From a virus: a stretch of DNA of 26,070 bases. The notes beneath the pieces were generated by a model, which was given only the letters and a program-made list of their open reading frames with translations, was not told the origin of the DNA and made no database searches. The DNA is taken from positions 1 through 26,070 of the IMG/VR virus record IMGVR_UViG_3300028553_000144; one strand, given 5' to 3'. This document shows positions 10,338 through 21,442 of the stretch, in pieces (position 1 is the stretch's first letter; every line of letters begins with the position of its first letter). The translations under genes and the position numbers were made by a program.

Positions 10338-10504
10338 CCACTGCGGTGGTGGGGCCGAGCATTCAAACCATTTCTTCAAACCTTATTACGATATGTCCAA
10401 ATTTTTCCCATTTTTTGGGATTACGAGATCTCAAAATTTTTCTCCTATTTGAGGACATTACGAAGGCTCTAAAAAACCTCCCATTTTATACTATCAAACC
10501 TTAT

Positions 10505-10532
10505 TTGTCAAACCATAAAACCATGTTATAAT
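10505..10532 (+). promoter_or_regulatory. promoter TTGTCA-N16-TATAAT
   Basis: TTGTCA (10505-10510), 16 bp, TATAAT (10527-10532), ending 6 nt before the ATG at 10539. Partly overlaps a CAAACC repeat, so repeat binding could control it. Confidence 0.65.
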
Positions 10533-10538
10533 CTTTAT

Positions 10539-10709
10539 ATGGGCAGAAACTATTTCTCAAAGCATGGAGGACCATATTTTATTAATGATGGTTTTACCAG
10601 GCATTCTGATATCAAACCTTACAAACTAGATAAAGGTTTCTTTTACTTTATAGTGTCAGGGTTTGTTATTACATTAGCTATTATAGGTATAGTTCTGTAT
10701 TCTTTATAA
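10539..10709 (+). CDS. single-pass membrane protein (56 aa), leaderless
   Basis: ATG at the predicted start site. Polar N-terminus (NYFSKHGGPYFINDGF) then one C-terminal membrane segment (about 35-55, FYFIVSGFVITLAIIGIVL). Sits inside the repeat array and carries one CAAACCTT. Function unknown. Confidence 0.6.
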   Translation: MGRNYFSKHGGPYFINDGFTRHSDIKPYKLDKGFFYFIVSGFVITLAIIGIVLYSL

Positions 10710-10754
10710 GTCCCGTCGCAAGGCCGCTAAATAATCCTATTAGACATTACGATC

Positions 10755-10785
10755 ACGCCTTTGGCGTCCCCGCTTTTTGGCGGGG
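10755..10785 (+). terminator. two tandem GC hairpins
   Basis: ACGCC-ttt-GGCGT (10755-10767) directly followed by CCCCGC-tttttg-GCGGGG (10768-10785). They follow the 10539 gene by about 45 nt and could end its transcript or structure the origin region; there is no U-tract. Confidence 0.45.
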
Positions 10786-11202
10786 GAGATAGACAAACCA
10801 CTACACAAAACCTCTCTATATAAAACATTACGATATCAAACCTTTTCTCCTGATTTTTAAATATTTATCAAACCTTTATATATATTATTGGACAAATTTG
10901 CTCATTTTGTCTATGTTTTTTATATGGTTTTTAAGCTATAAAGGTTTGGAAATAAGCATGTAAGGTTTGACAAAAGGAAGGTTTGGCGGTATAATCCAGG
11001 GGATATATAAGGTTTGGAGGTTTGGGAGCAGGCTTTAAAACGTCCTGGACATTACGACGCCATCTGTCTAAGTGCTCAATCCCCCACTTTACTCCACTTT
11101 CCTCCACGAAACCCACATCTAAAAAATATCAGTAAGATTTATTATCCTATCAAACCCTATCAAACCACCCAAATCGGACATATAAAACCTATTTAAACCA
11201 GG

Positions 11203-16397: not shown

Positions 16398-16472
16398 GGG
16401 GCAATAGCTTAATTGGTTAGTAGCTTCAATCTCATAAATTGGAAGGTGTGGGTTCAAGTCCCACTTGCCCTA
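16398..16472 (+). tRNA. tRNA with CAT anticodon (Met, or Ile2)
   Basis: Acceptor GGGGCAA/TTGCCCT (first pair G-U), D arm with TTGG, anticodon stem TCAAT/ATTGG with loop CTCATAA, T arm GTGGG/CCCAC with TTCAAGT. Lacks the three G-C pairs of initiator tRNA, so elongator Met or a lysidine-modified Ile2. Confidence 0.85.
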
Positions 16473-16476
16473 CTAA

Positions 16477-16553
16477 ACACCAGTAGCCAAGTTGGTAAAG
16501 GCACCAGTCTTATATACTGAAGATCGTGAGTTCAATTCTCACCTGCTCTACCA
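16477..16553 (+). tRNA. tRNA-Ile(TAT), imperfect acceptor stem
   Basis: D arm GCC/GGC with TTGG, anticodon loop CTTATAT (TAT), T arm GTGAG/CTCAC with TTCAATT, encoded CCA (16551-16553). The acceptor ACACCAG/CTGCTCT has two C-C mismatches (2-71 and 4-69) and the anticodon stem one C-A. Either a divergent functional tRNA or partly decayed. Confidence 0.7.
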
Positions 16554-16554
16554 T

Positions 16555-16626
16555 ACCCCTGTAGCTCAGCGGAAGAGCGACGGACTTCTAATCCGCAGGT
16601 CGTTGGTTCAAATCCAATCAGGGGTG
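16555..16626 (+). tRNA. tRNA-Arg(TCT)
   Basis: Acceptor ACCCCTG/CAGGGGT, D arm GCTC/GAGC, anticodon loop CTTCTAA (TCT), T arm GTTGG/CCAAT. Reads AGA, the dominant Arg codon of the genes that follow. Confidence 0.9.
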
Positions 16627-16635
16627 CTATTCTGG

Positions 16636-16641
16636 TATAAT
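16636..16641 (+). promoter_or_regulatory. extended -10 promoter TGG-TATAAT
   Basis: TATAAT with TG one base upstream, just after the tRNA cluster and before the glycan operon; no good -35. Confidence 0.5.
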
Positions 16642-16662
16642 GGTTAAAACAAAGGGGTAGTC

Positions 16663-17604
16663 TTGGCTAATATAGTTTTTTTAGGTAACTTTCGTGTTGA
16701 CTATACCAGCGAATCTCACCATGCCAAGTCTTTAGAGGCACTTGGACATAAAGTTGTTAGGATGCAAGAGTCTGACGCTAGGTCAGAAGATATCTTGGCT
16801 GCTTGTGTAAATAGTGATCTTTTTATTTGGATACATACACATGGTTGGCAGACTTCAGGAAAAATAACTATGGAAAAGCTACTTGAAAGATTAAAAACGT
16901 TATCTATCCCAAGTATGACATACCACCTTGACTTATGGTTTGGCCTTCAAAGACAGAAAGACCTTGAATCATTTCCTGTATACAAATTAATTGATCACTT
17001 CTTTACCGTTGATAGCCAAATGGCTCAATGGTTTAATGAAAAGACCAACGTTAAGGGTCACTATCTTCCTGCAGGAGTATTTGGAGAAGAATGTATTTAT
17101 AGGCCAAGCATAACTAATCGTAAGGTGTTGTTTGTTGGTAGTAAAAAATATCATCCAGAGTGGCAATATAGAACAAAGTTAGTTGAATGGCTTGAAGATA
17201 CATACAAAAATAGATTTGAGCACTATGGTAGCGGTGGTATCAAAAGTGTTCGTGGAATTTCTTTAAATAAAATATACTGGACTACTAAGGTAGTTGTTGG
17301 AGATACGTTATGTCTAAACTTTAACTACCCTGACTATTGGTCTGATCGTGTTTATGAAACTCTTGGTCGTGGTGGTTTTCTTATACATCCATATGTTCAA
17401 GGGATGGAAAAAGAATTTGAAGATAGAAAGCATTTAGTTTTTTATGAGTATGGAAATTTTGAACAACTGAAGGAATTAATTGACTATTATGTAGAACATG
17501 AAGAAGAACGTGAGCAAATAAGAATTGCAGGGCATGAGTTAGTGAAGAATAACTATACCTACAAACATAGATGGAAGCATATACTTGAAGAGCTGGGACT
17601 ATGA
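16663..17604 (+). CDS. CgeB-like glycosyltransferase (313 aa)
   Basis: TTG start with AAAGGGG 6 nt upstream. Two-domain GT-B type: N-terminal Rossmann (ANIVFLGNFR), and the C-terminal donor-binding block SDRVYETLGRGGFLIHPY (227-244) followed by EYGNFEQLKELIDYY typical of CgeB/Glyco_trans_1_2 proteins. Predicted to transfer a sugar from a nucleotide sugar to a glycan or protein. First gene of a cassette whose stop overlaps the next ATG. Confidence 0.85.
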   Translation: MANIVFLGNFRVDYTSESHHAKSLEALGHKVVRMQESDARSEDILAACVNSDLFIWIHTHGWQTSGKITMEKLLERLKTLSIPSMTYHLDLWFGLQRQKDLESFPVYKLIDHFFTVDSQMAQWFNEKTNVKGHYLPAGVFGEECIYRPSITNRKVLFVGSKKYHPEWQYRTKLVEWLEDTYKNRFEHYGSGGIKSVRGISLNKIYWTTKVVVGDTLCLNFNYPDYWSDRVYETLGRGGFLIHPYVQGMEKEFEDRKHLVFYEYGNFEQLKELIDYYVEHEEEREQIRIAGHELVKNNYTYKHRWKHILEELGL

Positions 17605-18299
17605 ATTACAATACTATAGATACAAACTACTCCTTTAAAATTAGAGAGTTGCTAGATGATCCAAGTGATGATCATAATTTAGACTATAAAGTAGTTGATG
17701 AAACATGGAATGAAAATGTTTATAGACTACATGAATATCAGTTTAAAGAAAATGCAGTATTTATTGATATTGGTGCAAACATTGGGTCTGTTAGTCTGTA
17801 TGTAGATAGCTTTAATAAGTTTAGAGAAGATGCAAACAAGATAAAAGTTTATTCAATTGAACCTGAGCCACACAATTTCTTCTTGTTAAAAGAAAATATT
17901 AAAAATAATCCAACTGAAAATATTACAGTAGTCAATAATGCTATTTGGTATGAACAAAAAAATGTTTTTATTACAAATAGAGGTGGTAATAGCAGCATTG
18001 TTGATGGAGGATTAACTGAATCTGTTGAGGTTTTAGCAATTACAATTCAAGACCTTGTTGAACGTTACGGTATTGATGAGATAGATGTTATGAAGATTGA
18101 TATTGAAGGTGCTGAATTTGATCTTATAATTAATACCCCCCCAGAAATACTTTCAAAGATTAGATATTTAACACTTGAGTTTGATAAATCTTTTGACGGA
18201 AGGTTTGGCATCATGATTGAAAAGCTTTCAAAACAGTTTGGCATTGAAATTTTAGGTAGTCCCGAAAGAGGAGGATATGTTTATGCAAACAGATACTGA
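17601..18299 (+). CDS. FkbM-family methyltransferase (232 aa)
   Basis: SAM-binding motif VFIDIGANIGSVS (53-65), an acidic residue in YSIEPEP (84-90) and the characteristic IDVMKIDIEGAEFDL (161-175). O-methylation of a sugar is the usual role. AGA is nearly the only Arg codon. Coupled upstream (ATGA) and overlapping the next gene by 23 nt. Confidence 0.88.
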   Translation: MNYNTIDTNYSFKIRELLDDPSDDHNLDYKVVDETWNENVYRLHEYQFKENAVFIDIGANIGSVSLYVDSFNKFREDANKIKVYSIEPEPHNFFLLKENIKNNPTENITVVNNAIWYEQKNVFITNRGGNSSIVDGGLTESVEVLAITIQDLVERYGIDEIDVMKIDIEGAEFDLIINTPPEILSKIRYLTLEFDKSFDGRFGIMIEKLSKQFGIEILGSPERGGYVYANRY

Positions 18300-19071
18300 G
18301 ATTGATTATCTAATTTGTATCCCTGTTTATAGAGTAACAGAAAGAATATATAAATGTATGGAATCTATAAGAGATAAAAATGTTTTACTTATAGATAATA
18401 GTGGAAACAGAGAGTGTGAAGTATTTGAAAAAAAGTATGGATTTCAGGTAGAGTATCAGTCAGAGAACATTGGGTTAGCAAGAGCATGGAATGTAGCATT
18501 AAAAAAGAATCATGATTGGACATTTGTTGTTTCATCTTCAATGTTGTTTAATCAGCCTTTTTCACATATCATTGATATGCTTAAAGACTTCAATGGTTTA
18601 ATGTTTAGAACACAGCATGGGTGGCATCTTTGTGGAATCAATAAAAAATTAGTTTCAGCAATTGGATATTTTGATGAAAATTTTTATCCATATAATTTTG
18701 ATGACTGTGACTGGGATCAAAGGTGCAGAATACTTGAAGAACAAGTTATAATAAACCCTGATTCGGATGTTGCAGTTTCTTGGCGTAGTCAGTTTGTACA
18801 TTCTAATACACCTATAAGTTATGTAATGAGAATAAACGCACCTGCTGCAGAAGTTGATGTATCATGTCAAATAGACGGCGGTGCAACAATAGACGGACTA
18901 AGAATTAACATTGAACCTCTTCATGATTACTTTAAGGCTAAATGGGGCGGAGATAGAACAAGAGAAGGTTGGGGAGAATATAAATATCCATTTAACGATC
19001 CTACAAAATCTTTAGACTATTGGCCAGTAAATGATATAGCGACATTAAAGAAAAACTATGGGTTAAAATAA
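18277..19071 (+). CDS. GT2-like glycosyltransferase (264 aa)
   Basis: GAGGAGG upstream; ATG 18277 or 18283. N-terminal GT-A-type fold (DYLICIPVYRVTERI...LLIDNSGN...ENIGLARAWNVAL), with DDCDWDQRC near 148-156 as possible metal/acceptor site, although a classical DxD is not obvious. Predicted sugar transferase. Stop overlaps the next ATG. Confidence 0.75.
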   Translation: MFMQTDTEIDYLICIPVYRVTERIYKCMESIRDKNVLLIDNSGNRECEVFEKKYGFQVEYQSENIGLARAWNVALKKNHDWTFVVSSSMLFNQPFSHIIDMLKDFNGLMFRTQHGWHLCGINKKLVSAIGYFDENFYPYNFDDCDWDQRCRILEEQVIINPDSDVAVSWRSQFVHSNTPISYVMRINAPAAEVDVSCQIDGGATIDGLRINIEPLHDYFKAKWGGDRTREGWGEYKYPFNDPTKSLDYWPVNDIATLKKNYGLK

Positions 19072-19736
19072 TGCAAACAATAGGAGTTTTACCAGCATCT
19101 GGAAAGGCCTCCAGAATTGGAGGAATACCAAAGTTTTGCCTACCTATTTCTGATGAAAGATGTTTGCTTCAGTGGCATGTAGAACAAATGCTAGAAGTAT
19201 GTGATGAGGTTCGTGTATCAACTAGACCTGAGTGGGTAAATATTATACAAAATATGGACATGAACATTAAGCTGATTATTCGTGAGCCATCAACAATGTC
19301 TGATGCAGTAAAGTTTATGATTGGTGAATATAACGATACCGTGCTTGTTGGAATGCCAGATACTTATATATTAAATGCACCTGTAAACATTTATAAAGAA
19401 ATGATTAAAGAAACCAATGCTGATATAGTTTTGGGTGTTTGGGAATGTGGTGATGAGTTAAAAGGTCGTGTAGGGCAGGTATTGTTATCTGGAGATAAAG
19501 TAATTAAGTCTGAAGACAAAGTAGAAGATTGTAATTACCCAGATATGTGGGGAACCATGATGTTTAGAAAAAACATGATTAGATATTTAGATCCAACCCT
19601 GGATCATCCTGGTAAACAATTAAAAGATTGGATATCTGATGGTGCTAATATATCAGCGGTAAAACCTGGTGGAAAGTATATGGATATCGGAACATTAAGA
19701 GGACTAAAACAATTATATAAAGAAATGGATTTATGA
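19071..19736 (+). CDS. sugar nucleotidyltransferase (221 aa)
   Basis: LPASGKASRIGG-PK (7-21) is the NTP-binding signature of NTP_transferase enzymes, GMPD (93-96) supplies the metal-binding Asp, and YMDIGTLRGL near the end fits the family. Probably makes an NDP-sugar (thymidylyl-, uridylyl- or similar) for the neighbouring glycosyltransferases; substrate not predictable. Coupled to both neighbours by overlaps. Confidence 0.85.
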   Translation: MQTIGVLPASGKASRIGGIPKFCLPISDERCLLQWHVEQMLEVCDEVRVSTRPEWVNIIQNMDMNIKLIIREPSTMSDAVKFMIGEYNDTVLVGMPDTYILNAPVNIYKEMIKETNADIVLGVWECGDELKGRVGQVLLSGDKVIKSEDKVEDCNYPDMWGTMMFRKNMIRYLDPTLDHPGKQLKDWISDGANISAVKPGGKYMDIGTLRGLKQLYKEMDL

Positions 19737-20767
19737 GATTAGGAATCATTGCAAGGTCTGACAACACTGGACTAGGTAATCAGACTAAAGAGCTTGTTAA
19801 AATGCTTAATCCTGATAAGGTTCTTCTTATTGATTCCTCGCAATTTAATGACAACACGCAGCATCCAGAATGGTATCAAGGGTACAATTGCTTGACTACT
19901 AAACGAGGAATGGCCTCTAAAGAAGAGGTATATGAGTTCATAGACGGACTAGATGTAGTACTTAGTTGTGAAATATTCTACAACAACTCATTTATTTCTA
20001 TAGCAAAGAAAAGAAAAGTTAAAACTGTTCTTCAATACAACTATGAATTCTTGGACTATTTAGCCAACCCAGACCTTCAACTACCAGACATTTTAGTTGC
20101 TCCAAGCCTATGGAACTTTACCGATGTTGTTGAAAAGTTTGGTGACAAAACCAAAGTAGTTTATCTTCCACCTCCAACAAGCATAGATTTATTTGCTGGT
20201 GCAAAAAATATTAATACAAGCAAGACTCACAAAAAAATATTACACATTGGTGGCAAGGCTGCTGTAAAAGATAGAAACGGCACAAGTACGGTAATTGAAA
20301 TGCTTAAGTATTCTAAGAGTGATTATCAACTTGTAATCAAGAGTCAAACCCCCCTAGATACAGAATGTGATGATCCAAGACTGGTCATTGATACCTCTAG
20401 TCCAGATACCAGAGAAAGCCTCTACGAAGGCTATGACGCTATGGTAATGCCAAGGCGGTATGCAGGCCTATGTCTACCTATGAACGAGGCTCTAATGAGC
20501 GCTCTACCCGTTTTTATGACCAATATATCCCCTAACAACAAGATACTTCCGCAGGAATGGCTTACAGACTCTAAAAAGATTGATAGGCTAATGACTCGTA
20601 TAATGCTTGATGTTTATGGGGGAGATGCTAAAATGTTAGCTAAAATAGTTGATAATTATTATGAAAGTGATATGAGTATTTATAAGGATCAGGCATATCA
20701 AATAGGATTAACAAACTTTTCAGCCAATAGTTTAATAGCAGGATATAGAGAATTGCTACAGCTTTAA
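19733..20767 (+). CDS. GT4-like glycosyltransferase (344 aa)
   Basis: GT-B fold: GIIARSDNTGLGNQTKEL at the start, and the donor-binding region YDAMVMPRRYAGLCLPMNEA in the C-terminal half. Last plus-strand gene of the cassette. Its end overlaps the convergent GT2 gene by 12 nt, with no terminator visible between. Confidence 0.82.
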   Translation: MRLGIIARSDNTGLGNQTKELVKMLNPDKVLLIDSSQFNDNTQHPEWYQGYNCLTTKRGMASKEEVYEFIDGLDVVLSCEIFYNNSFISIAKKRKVKTVLQYNYEFLDYLANPDLQLPDILVAPSLWNFTDVVEKFGDKTKVVYLPPPTSIDLFAGAKNINTSKTHKKILHIGGKAAVKDRNGTSTVIEMLKYSKSDYQLVIKSQTPLDTECDDPRLVIDTSSPDTRESLYEGYDAMVMPRRYAGLCLPMNEALMSALPVFMTNISPNNKILPQEWLTDSKKIDRLMTRIMLDVYGGDAKMLAKIVDNYYESDMSIYKDQAYQIGLTNFSANSLIAGYRELLQL

Positions 20768-21442
20768 ATCAAGCTTTTTAGATACTGGGATAATAAAATC
20801 ATTTGAAAATTTTTGTTTTAAGTTTCCTAATGTCATGAATGTTGCCTTCATATCTTTTATAAATTGAATATTTGTTTTAAGTTCTTTAATCTTATAGTCT
20901 GTAAAACTTAATACATAATAAGATAACCAAAGATCATCAATGATCCAATATTCTTCAGGGCAATCAAAAAAGTCGTCATTTAAAAATAGCTTAGAGCTAC
21001 ATATAAGTCCACCTGTTCCAGCGTAGTTACCTATTTCATTTTTTTCTAATTTTATTTTTCTGTTATATCTTTCTTCAACCATATGTGCCCAAAAAGATTT
21101 TATAGAGCCTTCTTCATATTGTTCGTGGCATTCCTGTATAAATGTGTCTGGAATAATTTCATCATCATCAATAAATATAATTTTTTCATATCCTTGCTCA
21201 GCAAGATCTCTTGCCAATAAGAATCTAGCGAACTGTTTAAATTCATTATGATAGTTGTGTACAGTTATATCAATACCTTTGCCAAATTTATCAAGGTACC
21301 CCAACAACTTTTCATGTCTATTAGAGTTATCAACAATATAAAAATCAAAATCTTTATTGGTTTGTCTTTCTATGCAACCCAAAGTTTTTTTAAGGTTTTC
21401 AAACCTTATATAAGTGCACATAATTAAAGCTGTATTTGACAT
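20756..21442 (-). CDS. GT2 glycosyltransferase (228 aa), minus strand
   Basis: GT-A fold: ALIMCTYIRFENLKKTLGCI, VDNSN, and FIDDDEIIP (near 89-97), a DxD-type metal site. Predicted to use a nucleotide sugar. Convergent with the GT4 gene; possible -10 TATGAT at 21451-21456 eight nt upstream of the start. Belongs functionally to the glycan cassette although transcribed from the opposite side. Confidence 0.85.
   Translation of the reverse strand: MSNTALIMCTYIRFENLKKTLGCIERQTNKDFDFYIVDNSNRHEKLLGYLDKFGKGIDITVHNYHNEFKQFARFLLARDLAEQGYEKIIFIDDDEIIPDTFIQECHEQYEEGSIKSFWAHMVEERYNRKIKLEKNEIGNYAGTGGLICSSKLFLNDDFFDCPEEYWIIDDLWLSYYVLSFTDYKIKELKTNIQFIKDMKATFMTLGNLKQKFSNDFIIPVSKKLDLKL

Follow-up and report, generated by a model that had tools for sequence, protein, structure and literature searches.

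Inverted short repeats, promoters and DnaA boxes mark a probable replication origin in uncultured phages, likely of freshwater actinobacteria

Introduction

Origins of iteron plasmids such as P1 oriR, RK2 and pSC101 carry repeats that bind the initiator and also overlap a promoter (autoregulation), and they contain AT-rich DNA as well as DnaA boxes. Short-repeat arrays are also typical of some centromeres, and the stoperators of cluster A mycobacteriophages are short asymmetric sites associated with promoters and scattered through the genome. The best-studied parallel for the locus described here is ori-lambda, which by analogy offers a precedent for iterons, a promoter and DnaA boxes in one origin: it combines O-protein iterons with transcriptional activation, and its promoter pO is followed downstream by two DnaA boxes (PMC3985674). 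For large lytic phages of actinobacteria, the papers we found give no description of how replication starts, and no DnaA-box origin in these phages was described in the literature within reach of our search (many subscription papers lay beyond it).

Here we examine a 26,070-base stretch of an uncultured virus (IMG/VR record IMGVR_UViG_3300028553_000144, positions 1 to 26,070; hereafter the window). From sequence comparisons, we consider it probable that the region at about 10364–11170 is a phage replication origin, built like ori-lambda or the iteron plasmid origins, and that its repeats also control its promoters. The same locus is most likely the origin in a large group of uncultured phages of freshwater actinobacteria. 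The locus is precise enough to be tested, in cultured Streptomyces phages as well as in a common group of uncultured ones.

Like ori-lambda, the locus joins iterons (for which initiator binding is putative) to promoter transcription through or near the origin and, in the window's relatives, to DnaA boxes just downstream of a promoter. It differs in its repeats, which are 8 bp long against the 19-bp iterons of lambda, number at least ten, are inverted across a promoter core and are intergenic, and in the DnaA boxes of the relatives, which match the consensus perfectly. With iteron plasmid origins it shares repeats lying over promoters, DnaA boxes (in relatives) and AT-rich DNA; unlike in these plasmids, a Rep-family initiator gene was not found, and the carrier is a large phage that encodes a polymerase and a helicase of its own. 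Its sites are short, asymmetric and placed at promoters, as are cluster A stoperators, but in six genomes they are concentrated in one locus rather than scattered between genes. Phages of the Stanwilliamsviridae (clusters BE and BK) have DnaA boxes in a gene-poor gap at a comparable genome end, yet a CAAACC cluster was not seen in them (in the Samisti12 genome and the gap sequences inspected), and they have no DNA similarity to the window region.

Results and discussion

The window's DUF932 protein is 100% identical over its length to its match on a 76.7-kb contig. Two relatives whose contig ends overlap by 99 and 127 bp, and which we take to be circular and complete, measure 111.9 and 105.9 kb, and complete genomes of the group are about 106–112 kb. 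The gene content of the group includes Pol III alpha, RecA, a DnaB-like helicase, a portal, other phage structural proteins and WhiB; a tyrosine integrase was not found in nine genomes. Among cultured phages, Stanwilliamsviridae (Streptomyces phages) come closest in portal, Pol III alpha and DUF932, and the best matches to core genes of this family (portal, Pol III alpha, RecA, DnaB-like helicase) are 44–54% identical. The group is likely related to this family, whose BE phages are presumed virulent and have terminal repeats of 11–12 kb (PMC10690885). Judging from WhiB and from the relatives, the hosts are likely freshwater actinobacteria. A host oriC carrying the same module was also considered: the sole hit outside viral collections was phage contig CANGYR010000020.1 (L240) in a Chitinophagaceae MAG, probably a mis-binned contig of the window's group that carries this phage origin. 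Elsewhere in the window, three tRNA genes are followed by genes resembling glycosyltransferases, a methyltransferase and a nucleotidyltransferase (16398–21442), conceivably a surface or DNA modification cassette.

Window features are given on the plus strand unless stated otherwise. The word CAAACCTT occurs 14 times in the 26,070 bases, against 1.07 ± 1.03 expected from dinucleotide shuffles (0 of 100 reach 14). Nine of these copies are packed into 640 bp, a clustering never matched in 100,000 random placements of 14 sites. Their orientation flips at about 10,900, with forward copies on the left and reverse copies on the right. The forward group (10364–10876) comprises exact copies at 10377, 10495, 10613, 10837 and 10869 and shorter CAAACC copies at 10364, 10509 and 10794; the reverse group (10941–11024, minus strand) comprises exact AAGGTTTG at 10941, 10962, 10978 and 11009 and a GGTTTG copy at 11019. 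Motif positions confirm the five forward and four reverse exact copies, and their inversion, reported in a first-pass annotation of this DNA. The 118-bp spacing that it gave for three forward copies, and the 21, 16 and 31 bp separating the reverse ones, are exact in the window. It had also described the region as gene-poor, and we found only a 56-aa ORF (10539–10709), encoding a putative small membrane protein directly after the left promoter, and a 29-aa ORF (from 11216), both after promoter-like sites. The AT-rich core between the groups (10845–10940, unoriented), a candidate unwinding region, is indeed 79% A+T against 63% window-wide; in melting energy, however, it is not an outlier, since easier melting is seen in several other parts of the window, and it does not take top rank for easy melting in the genomes compared.

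We sampled 80 relatives, found through the DUF932 protein. A dense repeat cluster lies downstream of DUF932 in 68 of them, always a few kb from the gene; a few of these clusters are cut by contig ends and so show their densest part incompletely. The other 12 are mostly contigs that seem to break off ahead of the region or within it and are therefore uninformative on conservation; one (L056) extends further and has no repeat there. The positions of individual copies shift among relatives, with forward copies staying left and reverse copies right. Both the cluster and its inversion are kept in the relatives where the region was found (a dense cluster in 68 of 80 sampled). The 118-bp period is absent from relatives, where spacings differ, and we do not treat it as meaningful. 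Averaged over 138 distinct loci, the profile runs from CAAACC on the left through a promoter to GGTTTG on the right, with DnaA boxes beyond. The motif itself is CAAACCT(T), sharply 8 bp long, with no conservation in its flanks. In the six genomes compared, each cluster holds 8–11 exact copies, few others are intergenic, and copies beyond the cluster show no concentration in intergenic DNA. A nucleotide search with the window region against annotated phages gave no match.

An array of short repeats would also suit a parS-like partition centromere to which a Par protein binds, and the first-pass annotation had mentioned a centromere-like site. This suggestion finds no support: a ParA-type ATPase (PF13614) and ParB (PF02195) were not found in nine genomes, and the gene content is that of a lytic phage, with no tyrosine integrase found. 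We regard a centromere as extremely unlikely.

Promoters are a second component of the cluster. A perfect sigma-70-type promoter (TTGACA-17-TATAAT, 12 of 12 bases, 10967–10995), conserved in relatives, has repeats overlapping its −35 box and occupying its spacer, and at a strong promoter-like site on the left (TTGTCA-16-TATAAT, 11 of 12 bases, 10505–10532) a repeat overlaps the −35 box. Counting as strong a match at 11 or more of 12 bases, 85 of 90 strong promoters inside the cluster of relatives overlap a repeat, versus 12 of 224 outside, and the overlap expected by chance is 40% for a random 42-base stretch of cluster. Since CCAAACC and GGTTTGG include it, a reversed control hexamer is also frequent inside the cluster (31 of 90), which leaves the outside and random-stretch comparisons to carry the argument. 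The repeats probably double as operators, a role that the first-pass annotation overlooked.

With nearly all strong promoters of the cluster overlapped, the repeats could simply be operators. The locus would then be a transcription-control island only, in which a phage repressor or activator on the repeats controls strong early promoters, while the DnaA boxes of relatives (below) serve regulation of transcription by host DnaA or DnaA titration. The few lone repeat copies that overlap promoter-like sites elsewhere in the same arm would fit such an island, as would the other DnaA-box pairs, without repeats, in the left arm. However, the repeats are confined to one locus instead of being spread across the genome's promoters, and operators would leave unexplained the CTCCACT units, TCAGTAAGAT and the near-fixed DnaA boxes described next. 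An immunity region also becomes less likely, since a tyrosine integrase was not found. We judge a control island alone to be unlikely and favor an origin whose promoters are controlled through the repeats.

Right of the reverse repeats, the alignment of relatives reveals a module made of ATTACGA, CTCCACT units, an AT-rich stretch ending in TCAGTAAGAT, and repeated TGTGGATAAC. In the window it opens with an ATTACGA box (11051–11057; columns over 90% conserved), followed by a G-free CTCCACT element of three units at ~10-bp steps (11080–11108) and by the conserved AT-rich anchor TCAGTAAGAT (11129–11138). The sequence TTATCCACA is a perfect DnaA box, and at least two perfect boxes lie within 400 bp in 58 of 61 relatives' loci. 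This sample was picked by a protein and not by DnaA boxes, so the count is not circular; a later pattern scan, which selected for boxes, is excluded from it. The first box is found at +15 or +16 from the anchor and the second usually at +26/+27, in some loci at +36/+37. Box density is 7.3 per kb beside the cluster versus 0.149 per kb elsewhere in the same loci (49-fold).

In six cultured Stanwilliamsviridae, the corresponding genome end has a gene-poor gap that contains DnaA boxes, and in five of the six the boxes are clustered beyond uniform placement. Samisti12 has three perfect boxes within 45 bp (L239, 122951–122995), in a 1.3-kb stretch without annotated genes that lies 1.3 kb from the right-hand DUF932 copy. 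In a comparable gap, two to four boxes fall within 300 bp in Comrade, BillNye, Yaboi and Wakanda, and Bmoc has a single one. A conserved block in 47 related Streptomyces phages includes the DnaA-box site of the Samisti12 region, and BLAST matches to this region in several diverged BE phages begin at the first box or no more than a few bases from it. The CAAACC cluster is not among the most repeated words of Samisti12, and the gap sequences of the other five phages show no such cluster.

In three Boydwoodruffvirinae (Samisti12, L239; Yaboi, L243; Bmoc, L244), the boxes sit ~50–115 bp outside the start of the 11–12 kb terminal repeat, and seven contigs of the window's relatives (L005, L007, L008, L012, L015, L020 and L053) stop near the forward repeats, 4.0–4.8 kb beyond the DUF932 start. 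Both observations would suit a genome-end or packaging site, that is, a terminal repeat boundary where concatemers are cut, with DnaA boxes for terminal replication. Against this, the boxes of three Loccivirinae lie 5–6 kb away from the terminal repeat, and contig ends are nearly as frequent elsewhere, none of them falling at DnaA boxes; the seven ends near the forward repeats may be assembly breaks. We also know of no need of terminases for DnaA boxes and iterons. A packaging site seems very unlikely to us, and we retain an origin as the preferred reading.

The window itself lacks the DnaA boxes. The slot that DnaA boxes occupy in relatives (11144–11166), which here reads TCAGTAAGATTTATTATCCTATCAAACCCTATCAAACC, has no DnaA box, even at one mismatch, and contains two TATCAAACC repeats (11148 and 11158). 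In a scan of 60 distinct loci selected for the window's sequence subtype, 22 have fewer than two DnaA boxes, many with CAAACC repeats in the slot. Other loci (L023, L073) have both there. Since box-poor loci with repeats occur beside loci with both, the two kinds of site seem exchangeable at this position, with repeats apparently standing in place of boxes lost in the window's lineage. We propose, tentatively and as a possibility short of an even chance, that host DnaA is co-opted beside the phage's own iterons in a widespread group of lytic actinophages and that some lineages, this one included, swapped boxes for iterons at the same position. If true, these phages would form a natural series from host-dependent to phage-controlled initiation. 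The findings suggest that the use of host DnaA can be gained or lost by exchange of short sites.

In the simplest reading, the origin combines initiator sites of two kinds: the phage's repeats and boxes for host DnaA. A putative repeat-binding protein, most likely phage-encoded, would bind the 8-bp CAAACCTT repeats flanking the AT-rich, promoter-bearing core. Since repeats cover parts of the promoters (−35 boxes, spacers and starts), the same protein would also control transcription into the origin, with autoregulation of the promoters that fire into it. Rightward transcription may help to unwind the DNA and to load the replicative helicase, and in most relatives host DnaA on the boxes right of TCAGTAAGAT would assist both steps. 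Helicase and polymerase would be supplied by the phage-encoded DnaB-like helicase and Pol III alpha. In the window's lineage, where boxes are replaced by repeats, the repeat-binding protein would act alone. The origin proposed in the first-pass annotation thus gains from the conserved cluster and inversion and from the DnaA boxes in 58 of 61 loci and in the gap of cultured Stanwilliamsviridae, and it is weakened by the absence of boxes from the window, by the unexceptional melting of the core and, as set out below, by the failure to find a known initiator family and by the distance to the replication genes. GC skew (raw and at fourfold sites, strand-corrected) gave no support either way, as the best positions differ between relatives.

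The annotation had suggested a search for an initiator or Par gene outside the window. Among the ORFs scanned, no known initiator family was found, and in nine genomes ParA, ParB and a DnaA C-terminal domain were not found. IstB was considered and set aside: in nine genomes it gave weak matches, which fall in the DnaB-like helicase. The replication genes lie ~35 kb from the cluster in a complete relative. The replication module also contains a conserved MerR-like helix-turn-helix protein of 180 aa (phrog_9440; L117:8511-9053, L332:1291-1833), encoded ~0.5 kb upstream of the DnaB-like helicase. Of the 130 phage records in which it occurs, 127 are Streptomyces phages, and it is also conserved in the replication module of Stanwilliamsviridae. 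The phages examined that carry it lack the repeat cluster, so it may bind something else, and we treat it as a mere candidate for the repeat-binding initiator. Its AlphaFold model was too uncertain to use (mean pLDDT 51).

DnaA boxes also occur away from the cluster. An additional perfect box lies in the left arm at window position 2014, near a gene start and without CAAACC repeats. Left-arm pairs in relatives (G005, 70248/70290; G006, 1347/1358; G004, 13741/13754; window-orientation coordinates) are likewise near gene starts and without these repeats.

Left of the core, three ATTACGA boxes (10385, 10420 and 10457) lie in imperfect 35-bp repeats (10385–10463), with more boxes at 10746 and 10827. 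ATTACGA is strictly one-oriented in the cluster (4–6 forward and 0 reverse per genome, six genomes) and often precedes a hairpin; it is possibly a transcript-level signal. Comrade, BillNye and Wakanda show an enrichment of the word TCGTAA in their last 20 kb.
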